Positions 12,185 through 25,680 of a stretch of DNA of 64,000 bases are shown here, in pieces. Position 1 is the first letter of the stretch, and each line of letters opens with the position of its first letter. The notes below the pieces were generated by a model. That model saw only the letters and a list, made by a program, of their open reading frames with translations. It was not told the origin of the DNA and did not search any database. The stretch lies in assembly GCF_002706795.1 (NCBI RefSeq), contig NZ_CP017705.1, forward strand, positions 1,553,501-1,617,500, given 5' to 3'. A program made the translations under genes and the position numbers. The stretch comes from Brevibacillus laterosporus DSM 25 (GTDB lineage: Bacteria; Bacillota; Bacilli; Brevibacillales; Brevibacillaceae).

Positions 12185-15100
12185 TTACAATGGCTTTTCA
12201 ACCTGTTGGCTATTTATCTGTTCCCGAGCCTTCTTTCTTGCGATTTTCCTTTGCTTGCCAATTGCAAGAACCGTATACAGGGATGGGACCACAATCAGCG
12301 TTAGTAGCATGGAGAACAATAGTCCAGAAATGATGGTAATAGCGAGCGGTTTGAACATCACACTGCCCGTAATCGCCATTGGTGTAAGGCCTGCTATCGC
12401 TGCCAGAGTTGTTAACAGGATCGGTCTCAATCGGGCTTTACCAGCTCCAATAACCGCTTCCTTCAGTTCAACACCAGTATGTCTTGCCTCCTCGATAAAC
12501 TCAATCAATACAATCCCATTTCGCACAACAATCCCAGACAAGGAGATAAAGCCCGCCACTGTCATAAATCCGATTGGTGTTCTTGTGATGAATAACCCGA
12601 TTAAGCTACCAGAAATCGCCAGATAAACCGTACTCATGACCAAAATAGGAATGGATAACGAATTAAACTGTATGACAATCAAGAGAAAAATGAGGAAAAC
12701 CGCTACAACCGCCAGCATTCCTAAATCAAGTAAAATATCGGTTTCCTCTTCTGTTTCACCAGTTACATTCCATGCATACTCAGCTGGTAATTCTAGCCTC
12801 TCCATCTTCTCTTTCAATTCTCTCATCACATCATTGGCCGTCCGATCCCCTACATCACTCGTAATTGTAACACTGCGTGACAAATTGTAGCGGGGTATAT
12901 TCTGTAGTGATAAGGATGGCTTCATTTCGGCTATCTGAGCAACAGGAATGAGCTGACCCTGAACGTTTGGAACCGTGAGCTGCTCAAAGACTTGCTGAGT
13001 TGTCATTCCCGATTGATCCGCAAGCAGAGTGATATCAACCAAATTTTTTCCATTATCAAATTGCCCCATAGGAATTCCTTGGCTAATCAGACGTAATGTC
13101 CTCGTCAAGTCAGCTTCACTGATCAACTTCTTATCCATATTTCCCTGATTCACATTGAATTGTAGGGAATATTGCTCGTTACCCAGAGTATCGTTTATAT
13201 TATAAGTTCCCCTCGTCTCGGCAATCAGTTGTTTTATTTGCTCCGAAATGGCATATAGCTGATGCAAATCGTCTCCATACACCCGAATGGCTACCGGACT
13301 TCCTGTATACATCGCTGCCTTTACACTATAGGGAATAATATTTGCTTCTGGGTACATCTGTTTAAACTGTGCCATCCACGGCTTCAGGACTTTTCTTGAA
13401 TCCATCTGCTTATTATCAAATGTAATTACCAATTGTGCCATATTTTCTCCTGATCCGACAGGTGGTGCACTCGGAATCATCTGTGGCCCATTCCCACCTA
13501 CGAAAGCAGAGACCTTTTCAATATGCGGCTGCTGCTGAATCCACTCTGTAACGCTCTGAACAATTCGATCTGTTTCCTGCAAATTACTGCCAACAGGCGT
13601 GCTAATGTTGACAATCATCTGTGGTCTGTCGTCATCAGGAAAAAGCTGAACGGGTATAAATGTAATCAATCCATAAAACACGGTTGCTATCAATACCCCA
13701 ATTACTCCTGTTTTTAATGGATTCTTCAGCATAATCGGCATTACGCGATCCCCATACCAATGAATCAAGGAATTGATTTGTTTTCCTAATAGACCGGCTG
13801 GCTTCTGATAGTTTGTCTGTTTTTTGTTCCGCCTCTCGTTCCATTCTCTAAAAATAGGAACTATCGTAAGTGACATGAGCATTGAGGCCAGCATCGAGAA
13901 GATGATGATGACCGGAACGGGAAAGATGAAATGCCCCGCATCTCCAGGAAGAAAAATGATCGGCCCAAACGCCGAAACCGTAGCAAGAGTAGCTGTGATA
14001 ATTGAAACGGAGACCTCTTTGGTTCCAAATATAGCAGCCGTATACGGGTCTTCCCCCAGTATAGAAAGCCTTCTCTCGATATTGTCATTCACTACGACTG
14101 CGTCATCCACAAGAATACCAAGTACAATGATGAGCCCGAAGATCGTCATCTGGTTGAGTGTAATTCCAAAGAAAGGCAGGACAGCCATTCCTGCTGATAA
14201 TGAGATCGGAATCGCCAACGCTACCATCATGGACGTCGTCAGGTTCAAACCTAGCCTGCATATGAAAAGAACGGCCACAATAGCAATCAGCATCTCGTGA
14301 AAAAGTCCAGAGAAAAGCTCATCAATTCGATCCACCTGGGAAAAGACAGGCTCTTTTTTTGCCCACGAAGGAAGATTCTTTTCTAACGTTTCTAGCTTTT
14401 GATCAATGGCTTTCTGAACCCTAGGAACATCGCTTCCCAATTCGCCATTTATGCTGACCGTCACAGCAGGCTTGCCGTTATAATAGGTTCGGTATTCAAG
14501 TCTTTTGGTACTATCTGAAATCGTCGCGATATCCTGAAGATAAACAGGCACTCCGTCTGTTGTACGGGTCACAATTACTTTTTTGAATGTGTCAGCATTG
14601 TAGCTAACAGGCATTGTAAGCTGATATTTACGGGTGTCAATGTTAACATCCCCAAGTGGCGTCGTTTCGTTTTTCGTTCGAACAGCATTCATGACTTGTG
14701 TCCAGGAAATTTTGTATTGTTGCAATCTTTGGGCATTTATATGTATTTTTAGTTCCTGTTTTGGCAAGCCGAGTATAGAGACGTCTGAAACACCAGGTAT
14801 GGTACGAAGCTGATCCTTCCAAAGATCAAGTGTATCGCGTAGCTGAAGAATTTCTTCAAATGATTCAGTCGTAATTTGAAAAGTCTGTATAAACGTACGA
14901 CTCATGTCATCATTAATGATTGGTTGCTCTGCTTCCTCCGGTAAATCAGTCTCAGCATCCTTCACTTTTTTCCGCAGCTCTTCAAATACCTTTTTCGGTT
15001 CGACTTTACTCTCTGACCTAACGGTAATAAGGGATATCCCAGAACGGGATTCGGAACTAATTGATTTGATGCCTTGAACCTCATTGATCTTTTCTTCCAA

Positions 15101-15292
15101 TTTCTTTGTTACGGTTTGTTCCATTTTTTCTGGAGTTGCCCCCGGATAAATGGTTGTGACCGTAGCCATACTGACAATGGTGTCTGGTTGTTCCTGCTTA
15201 GGAAGTGAACGGGAAATGAATATCCCAATTAGCACCACCATCGTAAAGAATACAAGCGTTATTTTTCGCTTTTTGATGAAATACTCAATCAT
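12185..15292 (-). CDS. RND (HAE1/AcrB-like) efflux permease
   Basis: Proton-driven multidrug or lipid exporter of the RND superfamily, 1035 residues with the duplicated 6+6 transmembrane plan. Signs are an N-terminal TM1 (MIEYFIKKRKITLVFFTMV), the porter-domain text PGATPEKMEQTVTKKLEEKI, and TM4 motif GILVDDAVVVNDNIERR with proton-relay Asp396-Asp397 present. The second half carries GSNLQETDRIV and a C-terminal basic tail. The start is set at 15292 (behind GGAGGGGGCAAACAGC), excluding an 18-codon extension within the adaptor gene. It overlaps the adaptor gene by 8 bp, so the two are translationally coupled. Gram-positive members of this clade often resemble YerP/SwrC of B. subtilis (surfactin export), which is of interest next to a lipopeptide NRPS. 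Confidence 0.9.
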   Translation of the reverse strand: MIEYFIKKRKITLVFFTMVVLIGIFISRSLPKQEQPDTIVSMATVTTIYPGATPEKMEQTVTKKLEEKINEVQGIKSISSESRSGISLITVRSESKVEPKKVFEELRKKVKDAETDLPEEAEQPIINDDMSRTFIQTFQITTESFEEILQLRDTLDLWKDQLRTIPGVSDVSILGLPKQELKIHINAQRLQQYKISWTQVMNAVRTKNETTPLGDVNIDTRKYQLTMPVSYNADTFKKVIVTRTTDGVPVYLQDIATISDSTKRLEYRTYYNGKPAVTVSINGELGSDVPRVQKAIDQKLETLEKNLPSWAKKEPVFSQVDRIDELFSGLFHEMLIAIVAVLFICRLGLNLTTSMMVALAIPISLSAGMAVLPFFGITLNQMTIFGLIIVLGILVDDAVVVNDNIERRLSILGEDPYTAAIFGTKEVSVSIITATLATVSAFGPIIFLPGDAGHFIFPVPVIIIFSMLASMLMSLTIVPIFREWNERRNKKQTNYQKPAGLLGKQINSLIHWYGDRVMPIMLKNPLKTGVIGVLIATVFYGLITFIPVQLFPDDDRPQMIVNISTPVGSNLQETDRIVQSVTEWIQQQPHIEKVSAFVGGNGPQMIPSAPPVGSGENMAQLVITFDNKQMDSRKVLKPWMAQFKQMYPEANIIPYSVKAAMYTGSPVAIRVYGDDLHQLYAISEQIKQLIAETRGTYNINDTLGNEQYSLQFNVNQGNMDKKLISEADLTRTLRLISQGIPMGQFDNGKNLVDITLLADQSGMTTQQVFEQLTVPNVQGQLIPVAQIAEMKPSLSLQNIPRYNLSRSVTITSDVGDRTANDVMRELKEKMERLELPAEYAWNVTGETEEETDILLDLGMLAVVAVFLIFLLIVIQFNSLSIPILVMSTVYLAISGSLIGLFITRTPIGFMTVAGFISLSGIVVRNGIVLIEFIEEARHTGVELKEAVIGAGKARLRPILLTTLAAIAGLTPMAITGSVMFKPLAITIISGLLFSMLLTLIVVPSLYTVLAIGKQRKIARKKAREQINSQQVEKPL

Positions 15293-16532
15293 GCTGTTTG
15301 CCCCCTCCCACGGCAACAATGTCACCATCGAGCAATCGGTCAGCACCTTTCGTAATCAACATATCTCCTGCTTGTAGCCCGGATGTAATTTCCAGAAAGT
15401 TATCAACGTATTGGCCAAGGGTTACAGGTGTCTTCCTTGCTTTCCCATCTTTTATCACATAGACAAAAGGACCAGACCCTCGGCTAAAGACAGCTTCTAC
15501 CTGCACAAAAATTCCTTCTTTTTGTGACAAGGCCCTCTTCGCACTCACTACTTGTCCGGGAAACCAGTCATGCTTTGCATTATCAATCATAACTTCTACG
15601 CTGATCGTACCTGTCTGCTCATTGGTGGCTGGATAGACTTTTGAGACCTTTCCTGTACGTTTTTGCTCATACAGTGTAAATTCGACTGTATCTCCTACAT
15701 TCCAGGCGGATATATCCCTGTCAGGTACGGGTAAAACTGTTTTTAGTTGGTTAATGTTACCGATACGGTAAATAGGAACGCCCGGACTCGCCAGTTGTCC
15801 CACATCCACTAGTTTTGATAGTACTGTTCCAGTAATCGGAGCTTTTATTTGTGTTTTTGCTAGAGTGGCTACGGCCTGATTTCGACCAACAACAGCGCCC
15901 TGATAGCTCGCTTGAGTCGAGCTTATATCTTCCGTCCGGGCCCCTGCCACTACAAGCGAGTAGGATTGCTGAGCTGAGGCAAAGTCTTTTTTAGCAAGTT
16001 CAAGTGCGTTTTTGACATTTTCAAGCTCAGTTTGAGGGAGCGCACCACTCTTATAAAGTTGCTCCATGCGTATGTAATCTTTTTGTGCCTTTTCCAGCAG
16101 AATTTTCTTTGCATCAGCCGCTACTTTTGCTTGCTGAACCTCTTGTTCTCTGAAGCCGTTTTTTACTTTAGCCAAATTAGCATTCGCACCATATACATTA
16201 GCCTCGGCCAAAGCTAGCTGGAGAGAGTAATCTGTGGAATCAAGCTGGGCCAAGATATCCCCTTTTTTTACTTGATCTCCCTCTTTGTAGAGTAAAGACT
16301 TGATCTCTCCTGCTACTTCGAAAGATAACGTTGTTTCTTCCTTGGGAGCAAGCGTCCCCGAAAGCTCACTTATCTCTTTAAATGTTTTCGCTTTAATTGC
16401 CTCTGCTACAACTATTTTCGCCTCCTGCGGTTGAACAGTTGCTTCCTTATCTTTACTGCATGCCGTCATCACGATCATCGAGAGGGAGAGTATGAGTAGA
16501 ATCCAAAACCTTTTTTGTACGGTAGTATTCAT
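15285..16532 (-). CDS. RND membrane-fusion (HlyD-type) lipoprotein adaptor
   Basis: The protein is 415 residues with a lipoprotein signal ending at MTAC (Cys25). Then comes a biotinyl-lipoyl-like half (TLSFEVAGEIKSLLYKEGDQVKKGDILAQLD), a coiled-coil hairpin around residues 105-205, the second lipoyl half (IKAPITGTVLSKLVDVGQLASPG), and beta-barrel and membrane-proximal domains. It should bridge the permease to the envelope; without an outer membrane its role is less clear, but this pairing is common in Bacillales. Ribosome site AGGAGTGATAAGAAC. First gene of the pump operon. Confidence 0.9.
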   Translation of the reverse strand: MNTTVQKRFWILLILSLSMIVMTACSKDKEATVQPQEAKIVVAEAIKAKTFKEISELSGTLAPKEETTLSFEVAGEIKSLLYKEGDQVKKGDILAQLDSTDYSLQLALAEANVYGANANLAKVKNGFREQEVQQAKVAADAKKILLEKAQKDYIRMEQLYKSGALPQTELENVKNALELAKKDFASAQQSYSLVVAGARTEDISSTQASYQGAVVGRNQAVATLAKTQIKAPITGTVLSKLVDVGQLASPGVPIYRIGNINQLKTVLPVPDRDISAWNVGDTVEFTLYEQKRTGKVSKVYPATNEQTGTISVEVMIDNAKHDWFPGQVVSAKRALSQKEGIFVQVEAVFSRGSGPFVYVIKDGKARKTPVTLGQYVDNFLEITSGLQAGDMLITKGADRLLDGDIVAVGGGKQHD

Positions 16533-16584
16533 GTTCTTATCACTCCTATATTATAAATCTGTTAGATTGTGAAAACTGACTATC

Positions 16585-16602
16585 GGAATGAACTTTCATT
16601 CC
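16585..16602. promoter_or_regulatory. TetR-type operator palindrome upstream of RND operon
   Basis: GGAATGAACTTTCATTCC is an exact 8+2+8 palindrome 53 bp upstream of the adaptor start. The half-site GGAATGAA resembles FadR-like and other TetR-family half-sites. No TetR gene is in the neighbourhood, so the regulator would be encoded elsewhere. Confidence 0.55.
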
Positions 16603-16687
16603 ATTTGATAAAGGGGGTCTGAATTAATGAATTCTGACCGCATCCCAGCATGCTTCTTGCACACCTGCAATTAATTCTGATGGATTC

Positions 16688-16978
16688 TTAATTTGAATAT
16701 TTCTCAAATAACACATCCTTTAGATTAAAAGCTTTTACCATAAAGCCGACAATCGTTAATCCGAAAATCAAGGTGGCGAAGCTTACTAGCTTTTGATAGT
16801 CATTTGTATTTTCTACCATCGTTCTAATTAAGATTCCCATCCAAATTTCGACCGTCGCTACGATCAGAGAAGTAACGATACAGAGAAAAACCCAAAAACG
16901 ATATGGTCTGACATGCGTTAATACCCACTGGAACACAGGTTTTTTGAGGGGTGTTTGCTCTTGTTTTTGAAAATTCAT
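16688..16978 (-). pseudogene. N-terminal fragment of ABC exporter permease
   Basis: Ninety-six residues beginning MNFQKQEQTPLKKP behind GAGAGGAGCAGCAG. They match only the start of a fused ABC exporter: TM1 (YRFWVFLCIVTSLIVATVEI) and TM2 (LVSFATLIFGLTIVGFMVKA), then the frame stops where the first intracellular loop should follow. A normal exporter of this type is ~580-600 residues with a C-terminal ATPase. The gene directly follows the NRPS (92 bp) and was presumably its exporter. Beyond the stop, another frame stays open down to 16624 (with KNPSELIAGVQEACWDAVR), of unknown origin. The C-terminal parts of an ABC exporter lie on the other side of the NRPS at 24472-25470. Confidence 0.7.
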
Positions 16979-17070
16979 CTGCTGCTCCTCTCGAAAAGAT
17001 AAATAGTGATTTCCCCTACAAACAAGAATCTTTATAGGGGAAATCACGGAAACTACACTTCCTACATAAT

Positions 17071-20000
17071 TTACTTCAGAGCAAAACTCGCTTCGAGAAT
17101 CTCTTTGAGTATGGAGCCATTTTTAGTAACTTGTTCTCCGCTAAGCATCCTCGGATGATCTCCATAGCCACGATAGTTTATAAATCGTTCAGATGCTCGT
17201 GCCCACACTTCCTCATTCCATTTTTCAGCCTCATAGGCTGTTACGTTTCCTTGCTCGCATTCTGCTTGGATGAGATGAATAGCGGCCTTTGTATTACCTT
17301 TATTTACCAATTGATTATGGAACATCAGATAACTGAACATGTTTTGAAAAAAACTTTGTTTGATAAAATCGTTAGTTATGAACTGCTCTAGATCCTCTTT
17401 TGTCATATTAAACAGCTCGTTATTTTCTGCTATTTTTTTAAAATAGGCTCCAATTTCTTTTCTTGCTTCAGTAGCCGTTTGTTCAATTGCTTTATCCTTC
17501 CAATAGGAGTCAAATAAAATAATGCTGGACACCTGTCTTCCTTGGTTTTCCAATACTTTTGCTACTTCAAAAGCTAAATTACCGCCAGAGGAATACCCCA
17601 TCAAAGTATACGGCCCCTCAGAATCGATCTGAGTAATTGCATTGACGTACTGCTCAATGCGATTGTCTTCTTCTATGAAGTCAAAGCTATATAAAGAAAT
17701 GTCGTGGACTTCTTCAGCAAGCTTTTGATAGAAGGTACTGTGGGCTGCAATCGGTGTAAAGCTAAATACAGGTCGATTTGTTTCTTTATTTAGTAGAATC
17801 GGGTGACCCGCGTTTTGCTCGTACTGCTTATGCAAGATAAATTCTGCCATTTTTTCAATCGTTGGATGCTGGAATACAAGATGTAGTGGCAACTCTTCCT
17901 GCATGTACTCATACACCTTTGATATGAGAAGCATCGCTTTTAAGGAATGTCCCCCGATTTCAAAGAAATGATCAGTGATGCCAATTTTCTCTACTGCTAA
18001 TACTTCTTTCCAAATAGCAACCAGTTGTTCCTCTACCATGTTTCTAGGGGCAATATATTCTTTTGCTGCAACGCCGACGTTCTGAGGCTTTGGCAATGCT
18101 CTCTTATCTACTTTTCCGTTAGCAGTAGTAGGTAGTTCTAAAAGCTGTACGAAGTAGGTAGGAACCATGTAGGCTGGGAGTTCCTTGGAAACAAATTTTC
18201 TCAAATCAGCCAGTACAACTTCTTTTTCAGCTACAAAGTACGCACATAAAAATTGCTGTGCATGTTGATCCTCTTGAGCAGTAACCACTACCTCCTTAAC
18301 ACCATGGTACTGAAGAATGGTAGATTCGATCTCTCCTATCTCAATTCGGAAACCTCGTACTTTGACTTGTTCATCTACCCGACCAACATATTCTATCGTG
18401 CCATCTGGACGCCACTTGGCCAAATCACCCGTTTTATACATGCGCTCCCCAGATACAAATGGATTAGCAACGAACTTCTCTTCTGTTAATTCTGGTCGAT
18501 TTAAATAACCTCTACCCAGTCCACGACCCGCTATGCATAACTCCCCTACTACTCCTATAGGCTGTAAATGATGCTCATTATTAACAATATAGACAGTTAC
18601 ATTGGCTAGCGGTCGACCAATTGTAATCTCTTGATCTACTCCAATTGCTCTTTGGATAGTCGTAACTACACTATTCTCTGTAGGTCCATATTCATTGTTA
18701 ATCTCAATAGCAGGATTTTTTTGTTTAATCTTTTGGACAATTTGGGGTGATAATTTTTCTCCTCCAAGAGTGACACAACGTAATTGGTGTAAATCCTCTG
18801 CTGTAGCGCTATCCACAATTGCATTAAACAGACTTGGAACACCATAGTAATGAGTGATTGATTCAGAGGCGATCAATTTTCGTAGTGCAAATGGATCTTT
18901 TGACTCTTCTTCCCTTGGCAAGATCGAAATGGCCCCTCCAAGCATAGGAGCAAACAAACTAGCTACAAATCCATCAAAAGCAAATGAGAAAATCTGCAGA
19001 GCTTTATCCTTTGGATTAAATGCATACTCGTCTCTTCTCCATTGCAGGCAGTTCACGATGGAATGATGTTCAATCATGACACCTTTTGGTTTACCAGTTG
19101 TACCTGAAGTATAGATGACATATGCCAAGTCAGTTGGTTGGTTCACAACTGTGAGATTGGTTCCATCAACTACATAATTTTGCTCCTCATCTAAATCTAG
19201 CCTCACCATATTAACTGCTAATCCATTGAACAAATGCGACTGGGTCAGTAAAAGAACAGCACCGCTATCTTCTAAGACATATTCAATACGTTCAGTAGGA
19301 TAAGCTGGATCAATAGGGACATAGGCTGCTCCAGCTTTCAAGATACCCATTATACCGATAATCATTTCTACGGAACGATCTACCATAATAGCTACTAGTT
19401 GATTGGGAACGATTCCTTTATTACGTAACGTACGAGCTAATTGGTTGGCTCTTTCATTTAGCTCTTGATAAGTCAACTCCTTCTTGTTCCAGATAAGTGC
19501 TACCTGATCTGGTGTTTTTCTTACCTGTTCTTCAAAAAGCTGATGAATCGTTGTATCCTGCTGATAGTTTCTTTCTGTGTTATTAAACTCTTGTAAAAGC
19601 TGATTTTTTTCTGCATTCGTCAGTATTTCGATAGTAGCTAGCTTCACTTCAGGATTATCTACGATCGCTTTTATAATCTGAAGGAAATTTGTCGTCAAGC
19701 GTTCTATTGTTTCCTGACGGTACAATTTGGTGCAGTATTCCACACCAATCATAATTTGATCTCTTTCTTCTGTGGCGATAAGGGTGATATCGAATTTAGA
19801 GTGTTTCCATTTATTTTCCCCTTCATAGGCAATAAACCGTAGCTCATCTAATTCAATAGAATCTTCTCCTCTGTTTTGGAGAGTAAACATGGTATCAAAC
19901 ATTGGATTTCTGCTTACATCGCTTTGTAGCTCCAGTTTCTCCACTAGCTCTTCAAATGGATAATCCTGATTCTCATAAGCTTGTAATGCATTTTGTTTTA

Positions 20001-23000
20001 CTTCTATTAAAAACTCTCTAAATGATTTTGATCTAGCTGGTTTATTTCGCATGGCCAATGTATTGACAAACATCCCAACAGTGCTCTGTAAATCAACATG
20101 CGATCGACCTGTAACCGGTGTACCCACAATCAGATCTTCTTGACCCGAATATTTGGAAAGAAGTACATTATATGCGGCTAACAAGACCATATAAAGTGTG
20201 GTTCCTGTGTCTGCAGCTATCTTGTACAAGCCTTCCATAAGCTCTTTGCCAGTTCCTCTTGTGATTACATCTCCGTCAAAGCTTTGTGTATTTGGTCTCG
20301 GAAAATCTGTCGGTAGATTTAACACAGGAATTTCATCTGCAAATGTTTGAACCCAGTGGTCTTCCTGTTTTTTATACAGATCCGTCTGAGACTGTTCATG
20401 TTGCCATTCAGAAAAATCCTTATATTGAATCGTAAGCTCTGGTAACGTATTCCCTTGATACAATTCCACCAATTCGCTGATGATGATCCCAGATGATACT
20501 CCATCAGAAATAATGTGATGCGTATCTACTAGTAACAAATAACGATCCAATCGGGTTTGAACAAGCTTGACGCGAAGCAATGGTGCCATATTTAACTGGA
20601 ATGGTTTGATAAACTCATCAATGATTTCTTCCAGCTCTTCTTCAACAGTTACCTGATAATCGACTGCAAAATCAACTACTGAATGGATTTTCTGTACAGG
20701 AGAACCATTTACTAACTCGAAGGATGTACGCAAGCTCTCATGACGGTTGATTAAACCTTTAAAAGCGGTTTCTAGTTTTACCAGATCAAGTTTTCCTTCC
20801 AGTAGCATGATAGAAGGCATGTTATAGCTGATATCTATCCCATCAAACTGGTTAAGAATAAACATTCTTCGTTGTGCTGCTGAAACCGGATAGTAATCTT
20901 GCTTTGTAGCAGGTCGGATAGAAATGATCTGCTTCATGCGCTCGCTCTCCAAGTATTGGGATATTTCTTCGATCGTTGGTTTTTCAAATAGGAAACGTAA
21001 AGGAATATCCATTTGATACTCTTTGTGCATTTGAGTTATAACCATCATAGCACGTAAGGAATGACCACCTAATGCGAAGAAATCGTCCTTACATCCAACT
21101 CGATCAATACCTAAAACTTGTTGCCAGACAGTAGCAAGTTGTACTTCCAATTGTGTTCGAGGAGCCACATATTCTGTGTTAAGCAAAGAATTGTCTGGAT
21201 CTGGTAACGATCGCTTGTCAATTTTTCCATTTGCAGTTAATGGCATCGCCTCAAGTGAAATAAACGTAGAAGGAATCATCGCGATCGGTAGCTGAGTTGT
21301 TAAATGGGCACGTATTTCTGCTGTACTTACCTCTCTATCCGTAACCATATATGCGCAGAGGAATTTTTCCTTCGCTTGATCTTCCTTCGCTACAACGACT
21401 ACTTCTCTTAGACCATCAAGCTTACGCATTTGTGACTCAATCTCACCAAGTTCGATCCTAACCCCACGGATTTTTACTTGATCATCAATTCGGCCCAAAT
21501 ATTCAATATTTCCATCTGGTAGCCACCTTGCTAAGTCCCCTGTTCTATACATTCGTTCTCCCGCGACAAACGGATTTTTCACAAATTTCTCTTCCGTAAG
21601 CTCCGGTCGATTCAAGTACCCTCTTGCTAGACCAACACCAGCAATGCATAACTCACCTGCTATCCCAATTGGTTGAAGGTTCTCAGAATCAGCCTGGACG
21701 ATGTATAGTTGAGTATTATATATAGGTTTACCAATCGGAATTGCAGCTAGTTCCTCATCTGTATCACAATCAAAATACGTAACATCGACAGTAGCTTCCG
21801 TTGGTCCGTATAAATTGATTAATCTAGCTTCACACACTGAGGAAACTGCTCGACGGAATCTATCAACATGCTGTGGTGGCAATGCTTCACCACTTGCAAA
21901 AACCTGCCGTAAAGACTGGAGTTTTTCCTCTGCCAACTCACTTGGCTGTTGTTCAACATAATCCAGAAAAGCGTGCAGCATCGCAGGAACAAAATGCATT
22001 GTTGTAATGCGATGTTCGGCTATTGTCTCTAAGATTTGCTCAGGGTTCTTTTCTCCTCCTACAGGTAAAAGGCACATTTTGGAGCCCACCATCGACCACC
22101 AGAATAGCTCCCATACTGATACGTCAAACGTAATCGCTGTTTTTTGCATAATGGTGTCAACGGATGAAATAGGGTATTTTGCATGCATCCACATCAGTCG
22201 ATTTATAACTGAATGATGTTCAATCATAACTCCTTTAGGCTTCCCTGTAGATCCTGATGTATAAATAACATAGGCTAAGTGATTCGGACCATTTATCGCT
22301 TCCAAATTTGACCTATCTTGGTGGTAGGTTTGAGCATCATTGATATCTACTATTTTCCCGTCAAAAGTTACTCGCTCCAACAAATGATTCTGGGTCAAAA
22401 GTAGCTTTGCATTTGAATCTTCTAACATATAGCGAATTCTTTCCTCTGGAAATTCCGGGTCAATCGGCATATATGCACCGCCAGCTTTTAAAATCCCAAA
22501 AATTCCAATAATCATTTCTAATGAACGTTCTGCCATGATTCCAACTAATTGATCAGCTACTACTCCTTCAGAACGTAGCTTTCGCGCTAACTGATTCGCT
22601 CTTTCATTCAGTTCCCGGTAAGAAAGTTGTTCCCCCTCGCAAATGACAGCTATCTGATCTGGTATACGTGCTGCTTGTTCTTCAAATAGCTGATGAATCT
22701 GCTTTTCGCGCGGATATTCCATTACAGTATTATTAAATTCAGATATAATCATATTTTTCTCTTCTTCTCGAAGCAGGGATATGTCCGCTATTTTTGATGT
22801 AGGATGATGAATGATTGTTTCAATAATGGTAAAGAATTGTTGAATTAGTTGTTCCATCTCCATTTCTGTAAACAACTGTGCTCGATAATTTAGTTGAAAC
22901 AGAATTTTTTGATTATCTAATTCAATCACATTCATTTCAAAATCATTAATGACGTCTCCACAAAAATTCTCATCAACTTCAATTTCAACATTTTCATACT

Positions 23001-24084
23001 GCGAATAATTCATAGCACGGTACTGTACAGAAACACCAAAGAGACGTTGAAGGTTCTTATGCTGATGTGCTTCTCGTAAATCTTCCATCATTTGATTGTA
23101 CGGGAATCTTTGATGGCGTAGGATCGAAACCTGCTCTTTTGATACGACTTTCAATAATGAAAGCAAATCCATCTCAGGATCAACGAATACCCGTGTTGGC
23201 ACTGTACTAACGAACATTCCTAGCATTTCTTTTTCCTTTTTGGTTGTTCTGTTCGCATAGAATGTGCCAATTGAAACATCGTTCTGTGTTGTCTTTTTAT
23301 GCAAGTAGATGTACAACGCAGTCATAAAGACTGTTAACATACTACTGTTTGTTTGTTTGCAAAACTCATACAGGTTATAATACAAACGCTCTTCTAAGAT
23401 AATATTTTTTCTTTTTCCAGCAGTACTCAAGGTAAGAGAATTATATGATTTAAACCCTATCACTTCGGGTAAGGTGCTAAATTTATCTACCCAATACGAT
23501 TTATCCTTTTGATAGCGATCCGATTTTTCATAGTCCTGCTCCGTTTGTATATAGTCGAAATAAGTATGATTCTCTGTTATTTCTGGAAGCTCATCATTTG
23601 CAATCTGAGAATAGTATTCGTTCGCTTGATTGACGAACATTCTTGCAGAGATTCCGTCGCAGACAATATGATGAATTTTGACATTGTACCAATATTCTTG
23701 GTCACTAATCTTGCAAATGATAAATTGATACAATTTTGAATGTAGAAGTTCAAATGGTGTACGATTGTGCTGGTCCAGCCACTTTAATGCCTGAGCTTCT
23801 CCATCAACACCTGAAAAATCTAAACATTCGAACGATTTTTCGCTATATTCCTCCACATATTGCTGAGGATAGCCATTTTGAGCTGTCAATTTAATCCGAA
23901 AGGCATCGTGCCGGAAAATAATCATATTTAGAGCTTGTTGCAAGGCACCTAGACTTATATTACCTTTCATTTTAATTGTCAATGAAATCGACGATACACC
24001 CGTATTTGGATAAAGTAATTCGGAGTACCAAATCCTTTGTTGAGGATGAGTCAACGAAAATAATTGAAGCAAATCCTTATTCAT
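17071..24084 (-). CDS. Two-module lipopeptide NRPS, C-A(Ser)-T-C-A(Leu)-T-TE
   Basis: Non-ribosomal peptide synthetase of 2337 residues. Domains in order: C1 with HHIVCDG at ~138; A1 (~465-960) with selectivity Asp at 654; T1 with phosphopantetheine Ser1009 in LGGHSLRA; C2 with HHIISDG at ~1189; A2 with key Asp at 1704; T2 with Ser2047 in IGGHSLKA; TE with GYSSGG nucleophile Ser2165. Reading the specificity positions gives D-V-W-H-F-S-L-V-D-K for A1, a known serine code, and D-G-A-Y-T-G-E-V-V-K for A2, a known leucine code. C1 closely follows the starter C domain of surfactin synthetase (RIWYSELLYPNTG, KEKEMLGMFVSTVPTR, LRHQRFPYN), so it should load a fatty acyl group. No epimerisation or methylation domain. 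Predicted product: N-acyl-Ser-Leu, released by TE as acid, lactone or cyclic oligomer. Ribosome site AGAGGTG. No stand-alone loading or 4'-phosphopantetheinyl transferase gene nearby. Confidence 0.92.
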   Translation of the reverse strand: MNKDLLQLFSLTHPQQRIWYSELLYPNTGVSSISLTIKMKGNISLGALQQALNMIIFRHDAFRIKLTAQNGYPQQYVEEYSEKSFECLDFSGVDGEAQALKWLDQHNRTPFELLHSKLYQFIICKISDQEYWYNVKIHHIVCDGISARMFVNQANEYYSQIANDELPEITENHTYFDYIQTEQDYEKSDRYQKDKSYWVDKFSTLPEVIGFKSYNSLTLSTAGKRKNIILEERLYYNLYEFCKQTNSSMLTVFMTALYIYLHKKTTQNDVSIGTFYANRTTKKEKEMLGMFVSTVPTRVFVDPEMDLLSLLKVVSKEQVSILRHQRFPYNQMMEDLREAHQHKNLQRLFGVSVQYRAMNYSQYENVEIEVDENFCGDVINDFEMNVIELDNQKILFQLNYRAQLFTEMEMEQLIQQFFTIIETIIHHPTSKIADISLLREEEKNMIISEFNNTVMEYPREKQIHQLFEEQAARIPDQIAVICEGEQLSYRELNERANQLARKLRSEGVVADQLVGIMAERSLEMIIGIFGILKAGGAYMPIDPEFPEERIRYMLEDSNAKLLLTQNHLLERVTFDGKIVDINDAQTYHQDRSNLEAINGPNHLAYVIYTSGSTGKPKGVMIEHHSVINRLMWMHAKYPISSVDTIMQKTAITFDVSVWELFWWSMVGSKMCLLPVGGEKNPEQILETIAEHRITTMHFVPAMLHAFLDYVEQQPSELAEEKLQSLRQVFASGEALPPQHVDRFRRAVSSVCEARLINLYGPTEATVDVTYFDCDTDEELAAIPIGKPIYNTQLYIVQADSENLQPIGIAGELCIAGVGLARGYLNRPELTEEKFVKNPFVAGERMYRTGDLARWLPDGNIEYLGRIDDQVKIRGVRIELGEIESQMRKLDGLREVVVVAKEDQAKEKFLCAYMVTDREVSTAEIRAHLTTQLPIAMIPSTFISLEAMPLTANGKIDKRSLPDPDNSLLNTEYVAPRTQLEVQLATVWQQVLGIDRVGCKDDFFALGGHSLRAMMVITQMHKEYQMDIPLRFLFEKPTIEEISQYLESERMKQIISIRPATKQDYYPVSAAQRRMFILNQFDGIDISYNMPSIMLLEGKLDLVKLETAFKGLINRHESLRTSFELVNGSPVQKIHSVVDFAVDYQVTVEEELEEIIDEFIKPFQLNMAPLLRVKLVQTRLDRYLLLVDTHHIISDGVSSGIIISELVELYQGNTLPELTIQYKDFSEWQHEQSQTDLYKKQEDHWVQTFADEIPVLNLPTDFPRPNTQSFDGDVITRGTGKELMEGLYKIAADTGTTLYMVLLAAYNVLLSKYSGQEDLIVGTPVTGRSHVDLQSTVGMFVNTLAMRNKPARSKSFREFLIEVKQNALQAYENQDYPFEELVEKLELQSDVSRNPMFDTMFTLQNRGEDSIELDELRFIAYEGENKWKHSKFDITLIATEERDQIMIGVEYCTKLYRQETIERLTTNFLQIIKAIVDNPEVKLATIEILTNAEKNQLLQEFNNTERNYQQDTTIHQLFEEQVRKTPDQVALIWNKKELTYQELNERANQLARTLRNKGIVPNQLVAIMVDRSVEMIIGIMGILKAGAAYVPIDPAYPTERIEYVLEDSGAVLLLTQSHLFNGLAVNMVRLDLDEEQNYVVDGTNLTVVNQPTDLAYVIYTSGTTGKPKGVMIEHHSIVNCLQWRRDEYAFNPKDKALQIFSFAFDGFVASLFAPMLGGAISILPREEESKDPFALRKLIASESITHYYGVPSLFNAIVDSATAEDLHQLRCVTLGGEKLSPQIVQKIKQKNPAIEINNEYGPTENSVVTTIQRAIGVDQEITIGRPLANVTVYIVNNEHHLQPIGVVGELCIAGRGLGRGYLNRPELTEEKFVANPFVSGERMYKTGDLAKWRPDGTIEYVGRVDEQVKVRGFRIEIGEIESTILQYHGVKEVVVTAQEDQHAQQFLCAYFVAEKEVVLADLRKFVSKELPAYMVPTYFVQLLELPTTANGKVDKRALPKPQNVGVAAKEYIAPRNMVEEQLVAIWKEVLAVEKIGITDHFFEIGGHSLKAMLLISKVYEYMQEELPLHLVFQHPTIEKMAEFILHKQYEQNAGHPILLNKETNRPVFSFTPIAAHSTFYQKLAEEVHDISLYSFDFIEEDNRIEQYVNAITQIDSEGPYTLMGYSSGGNLAFEVAKVLENQGRQVSSIILFDSYWKDKAIEQTATEARKEIGAYFKKIAENNELFNMTKEDLEQFITNDFIKQSFFQNMFSYLMFHNQLVNKGNTKAAIHLIQAECEQGNVTAYEAEKWNEEVWARASERFINYRGYGDHPRMLSGEQVTKNGSILKEILEASFALK

Positions 24085-24471
24085 ATTGCTGCACCTCTTG
24101 TTAGAAATTATAGTTTATATAAAAAAATACTATGATTGCTTACTATGTGGATGCTATCGGCATGTTGCAAGGTTTGACTGTATGTTAGGATAGATGACGT
24201 TAATCTAAGATTTATGAGAGTTATGTCTAGAGATGTAGGGAGTCGCTTGAGGAAAGACGGTACTTTATGCAGAGGAATCATCATGATGTGAGAAAAGATT
24301 TTTTGTATATGAATCTATCAAATATTTTACCATCACCTCTTTTACTCAAGGATAATTGAAGCGGTTGTATGCGATCATACTTGGCCTCCTTTTCGATGTG
24401 AGTGACATATTGTTGCAGCAAAAAACCTTTGACCTGTAAAAGCTAAATCACATATTCCACAAAAATATATT
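24085..24471. other. Intergenic region upstream of NRPS with a possible coding remnant
   Basis: On the minus strand an AT-rich stretch just before the NRPS has a TATAAT-like hexamer (about 24103-24108) but no clear -35. Further up, an open frame without start (24281-24442) reads GFLLQQYVTHIEKEAKYDRI followed by QPL. Its tail is reminiscent of the linker between an NRPS thiolation domain and the next condensation domain. It may be the decayed end of an upstream NRPS module, but the match is short and the call is tentative. Confidence 0.3.
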
Positions 24472-25680
24472 TTATGAAAAAATAAACATTTGCGACTCAC
24501 CATAACATATTAGCATTATTCTTCCATTTAAGTGTTTGTAAAATTTGTGAACTTTTATATGTATTTCTGTAAATTTCATGCTGAAAAAGTCCAAGATGCT
24601 ATTGACCGTATCCACGATAGAACCCTGCTCCATCACGAAAATGACATTTGCTATCTCTGCTGTTTGCATTTGATGCGTTACGATCATGACGGTACGTTGA
24701 TCCTTTAATGAGCGGATCGCGTCACGAACACATGATTCGGAATGTGAATCTAGAGCAGACGTAGGCTCATCAAATAAAACGATAGGAGCTTTTGATAATA
24801 AAGCACGTGCAATGGCGATTCTTTGCCGTTGTCCTCCTGATAAACGTACCTTATCCCCTCCAATGAAGGTTTTGTATCCATCAGGCAACCCCAGAGTAAA
24901 TTCCGTGAGCATAGGTTGTTGAGATTTATTATCAACAATGATCGGATCGATTTCTTCGACTGGGTGATTCAACAATCCGTACACTCTAGCTGAGCCTGAT
25001 AAGGAATGTTGTAGGGAAGCAATAATTCTGCCAAACTCCAGAAAAATAAAGACCATAGTTGTCTGTAGCTGAACCAATTGTCCCAAAACCCCTAGTTCAT
25101 TTTTAGAATATATAAACAATCCAACTACTAACATACCGCCAAACATAACGAAACGAAACAAAAAATTGATTGCATCTAGTAACCCCGTCTTAAAACCTTG
25201 GCTATTTGCGGTCTGAGTTAGCTCCTTATTTGTATCGGCCAGATCTTCTCTAACTACTTTCCCAGCAGGGAACGTTTTAATAATAGGCAGTCCTTCTATG
25301 GACCCAGCTATTTTTGCTGTTATTTCGCCTAATTTGGCTTGAAGCTGATCATTTGTCTCCCTCAATGGCTGAACAAAACGAACATTAACAAAAGTGATAC
25401 CAACACCTAGTACAATGAAGATAAGAGAAAATCGCCAATCTAGAATCAGCATTGTGGCAGTCACCATGACCAAAGCTACCTCGTTGACCTCGATGAGATC
25501 GCTATTCGTGGCCATCGCGATGTAACTATCTTTCTTCTCTTCCGGAATGATTCCGGTTAGATAGAGCTTGGCGTGGTCGTTTGCTTCTTTGACTAGCTGT
25601 AAATCCTGCAGCGTTTGTATATCGTAGGGAGATACTACTTGAATATTTCCATATCCCGCTACTTTAGCTGTCGTTTTCAC
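24472..25680 (-). pseudogene. Chimeric ORF: baseplate-hub-like N-terminus fused to broken ABC exporter
   Basis: An open frame of 402 codons starting at GTG 25680 behind GGGAGGGGGGATTGT. Residues 1-~68 (GYGNIQVVSPYDIQTLQDLQ, then LYLTGIIPEEKKDSYI) look like the N-terminus of VgrG/late-control-D-type baseplate proteins of Firmicute contractile injection elements. From about residue 70 it becomes an ABC exporter: TM3-TM6, then NBD parts with RLSGGQRQRIAIARALL (signature), IVLFDEPTSALD (Walker B) and a His-loop VTHQ. The stretch that should hold Walker A and the Q-loop is missing: EEIDPIIVDNKSQQP jumps in frame to MLTEFTLGLPDGYKTFIGG. The C-terminal tail also diverges. It cannot be a working ATPase. 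Transcribed toward the NRPS. The ABC part is clear; the baseplate resemblance is moderate. Confidence 0.7.

Follow-up and report, generated by a model that had tools for sequence, protein, structure and literature searches.

A natural fusion of brevicidine-family and tyrocidine-type synthetases in Brevibacillus laterosporus, predicted to yield an N-acyl-Ser-Leu lipodipeptide

The window, a 64,000-nucleotide stretch of the Brevibacillus laterosporus DSM 25 genome, harbors a non-ribosomal peptide synthetase (NRPS) gene that is a natural splice of two antibiotic synthetases, with a front of the brevicidine/relacidine type and a back of the tyrocidine type (TycC). The gene has been kept intact and has moved between Brevibacillus genomes. 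Judged from its sequence, this naturally fused gene probably encodes a functional two-module NRPS, for which we propose, with good if not full confidence, a route to the linear N-(4-methylhexanoyl)-L-Ser-L-Leu acid. An N-acyl-Ser-Leu lipodipeptide, as put forward in the original prediction, remains the straightforward expectation, its starter condensation domain and Ser and Leu codes being correct, whereas the accompanying analogy to serrawettin W1 is weak and the chimeric origin from two antibiotic synthetases had been overlooked.

According to the ORF and its translation, the gene is a single open frame of 2337 amino acids with an ATG start, reading from 24084 to 17071 on the minus strand; its extent had been recognized before, but not its strand. 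Pfam matches (two Condensation, two AMP-binding, two PP-binding and one Thioesterase) give the order C-A-T-C-A-T-TE, and alignment to the GrsA pocket positions predicts the codes DVWHFSLVDK (Ser) for A1 and DGAYTGEVVK (Leu) for A2, both order and codes being identical to those first reported. The active-site motifs HHIVCDG, HHIISDG, GGHSLRA, GGHSLKA and GYSSGG, together with Asp2192 and His2310, are intact, hence order, motifs and codes are all those of a two-module Ser-Leu NRPS. All domains lie on the minus strand. The first module comprises C1, a starter condensation domain of the brevicidine/laterocidine type (residues 1-450, 22735..24084), A1 (residues 461-965, 21190..22704) and T1 (residues 968-1050, 20935..21183), the second C2 (LCL type, residues 1059-1500, 19585..20910), A2 (residues 1511-2002, 18079..19554) and T2 (residues 2006-2088, 17821..18069), followed by the thioesterase (residues 2096-2337, 17074..17799) with the catalytic residues Ser2165, Asp2192 and His2310.

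Sliding identity separates two segments of different descent. Residues 1 to ~873, covering the starter C domain and the A1 core, derive from module 1 of the brevicidine/laterocidine/relacidine synthetases, to which they are 80-96% identical. Compared with the laterocidine-type module 1 of a sister genome, G003, the head (residue 1 to ~850) is mostly 80-96% identical per 50-residue window, and the starter C domain alone reaches 82-96% per window against the brevicidine C1 of the host. Residues ~875-2337 are instead ~91% identical to the TycC end of the same genome, of which the C-terminal sub-domain of A5, T5, the complete module 6 and the TE were captured. Thus A1 is itself composite, with a core from a laterocidine/relacidine-type Ser1 module and a sub-domain from TycC module 5, while T1 stems from TycC module 5, and C2 (90% identical to TycC C6), A2 and the TE from the end of TycC. 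Among sites that tell the parents apart, almost every one up to ~873 is of the first type and almost every one from 875 of the second, with a single switch from laterocidine type to tycC type inside motif A8 (YLGRIDDQVKIRG|VRIELGEIE; residues 862-875, 21460..21501), the hinge between the A core and the A sub-domain. The nearest relative hence changes sharply within the gene, both parents are identified and the flanks match each, as expected of a natural chimera. An assembly artefact is ruled out by the presence of the fusion in three assemblies, and a chance pattern by a second genome with the same full-length frame.

Both kinds of parent reside in the host (5.4 Mb in one contig, with 102 condensation-domain matches). 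Its tyrocidine-type set consists of proteins of 1077, 3593 and 6490 amino acids with the classical order A-T-E, (C-A-T)x3-E and (C-A-T)x6-TE. A synthetase of 12198 amino acids and the subunit next to it have the predicted sequence Asn-Tyr-Trp-Orn-Orn-Gly-Orn-Trp-Thr / Ile-Gly-Ser, that of brevicidine, and the counterpart pair in G003 is predicted to assemble Ser-Tyr-Trp-Orn-Orn-Gly-Orn-Trp-Thr / Ile-Asn-Gly-Gly, that of laterocidine, with Ser1. The code-predicted residues of these synthetases agree with the published peptides (PMC7818431, PMC10111413, PMC6095874). A true relacidine synthetase gene is absent from the genomes searched. Between C1 and A8, the Asn-specific A1 core of the host brevicidine synthetase and the Ser-specific core of the G003 laterocidine synthetase are strongly unlike, while the flanks are alike on both sides, which suggests that A cores were swapped a second time in this family.

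The DNA on either side of the gene bears the same two signatures. Downstream, 16727-17071 corresponds to the spacer behind tycC and the initial ~100 codons of the next gene, which encodes an ABC transporter (remnant at 16727..17047, minus strand; 91% DNA identity to the tycC downstream flank, and 94% over residues 1-102 by tblastn). An ORF at 16688-17047 was considered as a small accessory gene and rejected, being the 5' end of this ABC gene. Upstream, 24084-25485 comprises the leader together with a broken version of the ABC transporter gene found ahead of the brevicidine-family synthetase (24610..25485, minus strand; 89-91%), retaining only parent residues 159-350 and 478-575 and lacking the N-terminus and the Walker A region. 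The exporter fragments captured along with the gene are disrupted in every one of the three genomes that carry the chimera, in each differently. As the flanks match both parent clusters, one inter-cluster crossover explains the whole block. Furthermore, the tyrocidine-type and brevicidine clusters of the host share a strand and are ~190 kb apart; one recombination of the deletion type would thus yield the chimera, and we infer that the fusion arose in this manner and afterwards entered a genome in which both parents were retained. Directly 3' of the NRPS stop codon, a strong inverted repeat of 17 pairs (17006-17047) is followed by a T-rich stretch; it is inherited from the tycC downstream spacer and is a candidate terminator or attenuator.

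To assess the identity of the condensation domains further, 67 C and E domains were labelled by architecture and placed in a tree. C1 groups with the brevicidine and laterocidine C1 domains (SH-aLRT 100) in a first-position clade (99), apart from the LCL, DCL and E domains, in support of the starter type initially assigned to it, for which placement among LCL domains would have been damaging. C2 groups with TycC C6 (100), inside the LCL domains. A search of solved-structure sequences with C1 returned, among its best matches, RzmA (7c1k, 7c1h; a starter C domain) alongside TycC and others. The brevicidine and laterocidine synthetases make N-acylated peptides, and that of laterocidine has a named condensation starter domain (PMC6095874, PMC9749936).

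Of five Brevibacillus genomes, three carry the chimera, each at a different locus. One further copy is a full-length frame of the same 2337 amino acids (98% identity), and another of 1695 amino acids runs to the end of its contig; one of the carriers is a contig of Brevibacillus laterosporus MSSRFCCT15, a sister genome. The genomes G001 and G002 contain no match of comparable identity. At the site occupied in the host, G003 and G004 have the RND adaptor and MFS/IspH genes adjoining, without an NRPS block between, and this empty site carries a TetR-family gene in intact form; in the host the block has replaced it except for its last codons (16624..16694, minus strand). Their own copies lie elsewhere. 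The G003 copy has an IS3-type transposase and a glucosaminidase gene nearby, and a search of the host with the G003 flank (L051:7472-8935) found no match; the G004 copy is close to a transposase-like gene, in a region of what we, by eye, take to be LexA and CrcB genes, the host counterpart of which is at 164 kb. Carriage by plasmids or viruses was rejected, with plasmids giving no match at or above 60% identity and viral contigs none. In simple Nei-Gojobori counts, dS between the chimera copies is 0.05-0.08 as compared to 0.14-0.46 for four backbone genes, and the copies were therefore exchanged after the chromosomes diverged. All frames are open and dN/dS between copies is 0.19-0.25, hence the NRPS is under purifying selection.

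The thioesterase departs from the remainder of the captured part. With TycC from five other Brevibacillus-family genomes serving as the outgroup, derived changes that arose on the chimera branch and were fixed before the copies split affect 13 of 233 TE positions, as opposed to 6 of 1133 in A-sub, T1, C2, A2 and T2 together (Fisher p = 8e-7), and the branch is longer for the TE (0.159) than for C2-A2-T2 (0.032). The dS in the TE is not raised, and TycC lineages exhibit no significant TE excess of changes. One of the replacements, S2311P, adjoins the catalytic His2310, and six are located in the segment aligned to the SrfTE lid, presumably the lid also here; its position was taken from the SrfTE alignment, an AlphaFold TE model having been set aside at a mean pLDDT of 55. 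Between present copies dN/dS of T2-TE is ~0.15, so the burst of fast change is over. Such a burst fits an adaptation to a much smaller substrate, and relaxed constraint for a time could also have produced it.

We infer the acyl group, stereochemistry, release mode and function of the product as follows. After the one A8-hinge crossover that joined a Ser1 starter module of the relacidine/laterocidine type to the last part of tycC, C1 would transfer a short anteiso acyl group from CoA or ACP to the T1-bound Ser, the most likely group being 4-methylhexanoyl. Brevicidine and relacidine carry 4-methylhexanoyl and laterocidine 6-methyloctanoyl (PMC9749936, PMC7818431, PMC6095874), and the former is our best guess because C1 is closest to brevicidine C1. 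The choice between C7 and C9 rests on this similarity, with C1 nearer brevicidine (C7) and A1 nearer laterocidine (C9). Ser would remain L on T1, as the next domain is an LCL C domain and an E domain is lacking; for relacidine, D-Ser1 was predicted and confirmed (PMC10111413). C2 would then add L-Leu, and the TE would take over acyl-Ser-Leu and most likely hydrolyze it to the linear acid, with a computed mass of 330.2155 Da ([M+H]+ 331.2227). The ancestral head-to-tail reaction of the TE would be impossible, given an acylated N-terminus and the lack of D-Phe1 and Orn9, and the Ser hydroxyl is the sole group by which a ring or dimer could be closed. As to function, a small surfactant or a signal would be a guess. 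A partial literature search, mostly of titles and abstracts, retrieved no description of the chimera or of a Brevibacillus acyl-Ser-Leu.

Release could instead proceed by cyclo-dimerization, two acyl-Ser-Leu units being joined via their Ser hydroxyls in a 14-membered dilactone (with C7 acyl groups 624.4098 Da, [M+H]+ 625.4171, computed), an outcome we consider unlikely. TycC TE can cyclo-dimerize a pentapeptide thioester and accepts a hydroxyl nucleophile, and a small acyl-enzyme is thought to favor ligation (PMC11735501), congruent with the rapid change of the TE after the fusion, including S2311P and the six presumed lid positions. For cyclization, however, the same enzyme depends on an N-terminal aromatic D-residue and on a cationic residue at position 9, and it forms rings of 6-14 residues (PMC11735501), closure by a Ser side chain is outside its known chemistry, and the changed residues could equally favor hydrolysis. 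It is more doubtful still that selection reshaped the captured TE from a decapeptide head-to-tail cyclase into a dedicated acyl-Ser-Leu dilactone-dimer enzyme, with a new compound class on a mobile Brevibacillus block as the consequence. Dimerization through a fatty-acid hydroxyl, as suggested by the serrawettin W1 comparison, would require a 3-hydroxyacyl-Ser-Leu monomer, and is very unlikely. SwrW, the serrawettin W1 synthetase, indeed uses a 3-hydroxy acyl chain for its dimer. The analogy is weak because the acyl group that the chimera would inherit lacks the 3-hydroxyl: although a starter C domain, Ser module and TE are arranged as in SwrW (PMC7767323), C1 is 88% identical to brevicidine C1 and groups with laterocidine C1, and these closest relatives load branched, non-hydroxylated 4-methylhexanoyl or 6-methyloctanoyl (PMC9749936).

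Hydrolysis to the linear acid presupposes an active enzyme, and the fused gene might alternatively be a recombination relic, a by-product of cluster deletion that spread with mobile DNA and yields little or no product. The truncation of exporter genes on both sides, different in the three genomes, could mean a decaying locus, and the nearby IS3 element in G003 and transposase-like gene in G004 point in the same direction; yet a 7 kb full-length frame is open in two genomes (the third being cut by the contig end) with its motifs all intact, and at the dS observed, dN/dS of a neutral relic would approach 1, making this explanation improbable. A last proposal places the NRPS in one operon with the RND efflux genes downstream of it (12185-16532), for making and exporting the lipopeptide, and draws on the shared strand, close spacing and loss of the pump-adjacent TetR gene in the host. 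It is the least probable of those discussed, as the RND genes of G003 and G004 sit beside the MFS gene without an NRPS, and their NRPS elsewhere without a pump; a role as dedicated exporter was rejected on this separation in two sister genomes. As a separate observation on 12185-16694, with nearly all of the TetR-family gene adjoining the pump replaced, the pump may be deregulated in the host or read through from the NRPS promoter.

With the brevicidine/laterocidine/relacidine synthetases the chimera shares the starter C domain and Ser A-core of module 1 (80-96%), the upstream leader and the transporter flank. Those assembly lines, however, have 12-13 modules, incorporate cationic residues and carry E domains in modules 1-4 and 7, that after module 1 giving a D-residue, whereas the chimera has two modules, no E domain, and module 1 kept only up to the A8 hinge. 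With TycC it has in common the A sub-domain, T, C (LCL), A (Leu), T and TE (~91%), and the first codons of the next ABC gene. Tyrocidine synthetase nevertheless is a TycA-B-C system of ten modules with a TE that cyclizes head to tail onto the D-Phe1 amine, and the chimera retains nothing of it beyond half of module 5, the last module and the TE, the TycABC-like set being encoded elsewhere in the host; it also differs in its donor residue (Ser rather than Orn), its presumably acylated N-terminus and its rapidly changed TE. SwrW is comparable in starter C domain, Ser activation, own TE and, as predicted here, a very small lipopeptide, but has one Ser module, as opposed to two modules here. Analogously, corallorazine Crz1/Crz2 combines two modules and a starter C domain with Ser first and a lipodipeptide product (PMC11342130), though with a dehydrating CmodAA C2 and TD release in place of a TycC-type LCL C2 and TE release. 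Corallorazine-type dehydration of Ser by C2 was rejected, C2 being the LCL domain of TycC C6.

The natural NRPS recombinants in the catalogue of Baunach et al. 2021 (PMC8097286) are mostly A-core swaps inside one assembly line. The chimera resembles them in that recombination took place within an A domain and the interface between A-sub and T of the donor was kept, but it differs by joining, at the core/sub hinge, the head of one cluster and the tail of another into a new short assembly line. Whether whole assembly-line pieces fused at the A8 hinge still work is a central practical question in NRPS engineering, and the gene represents a test case from natural recombination, with well-studied parents, both kinds in the same genome and the hybrid kept under selection. 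The chemistry of the parents predicts one exact small product, which renders the case directly testable, and the captured TE, quickly changed as its substrate shrank from ten to two residues, is a starting point for rules on TE release mode.

Two further observations concern other NRPS genes of the host. The region 4173000-4190000 holds an NRPS cluster, the first C domain of which falls in the starter clade, apparently a further lipopeptide cluster. Moreover, several NRPS subunits begin with a condensation domain reduced to its C-terminal half, without HHxxxDG (host contig 4952696-4953454, 855712-856524, 96966-97790, 5163926-5164819, 5175358-5176209 and 5204272-5205030). In several cases such a start comes directly after a subunit that ends in a complete C domain, as for example in the brevicidine and laterocidine subunits, and is possibly an intersubunit docking element.
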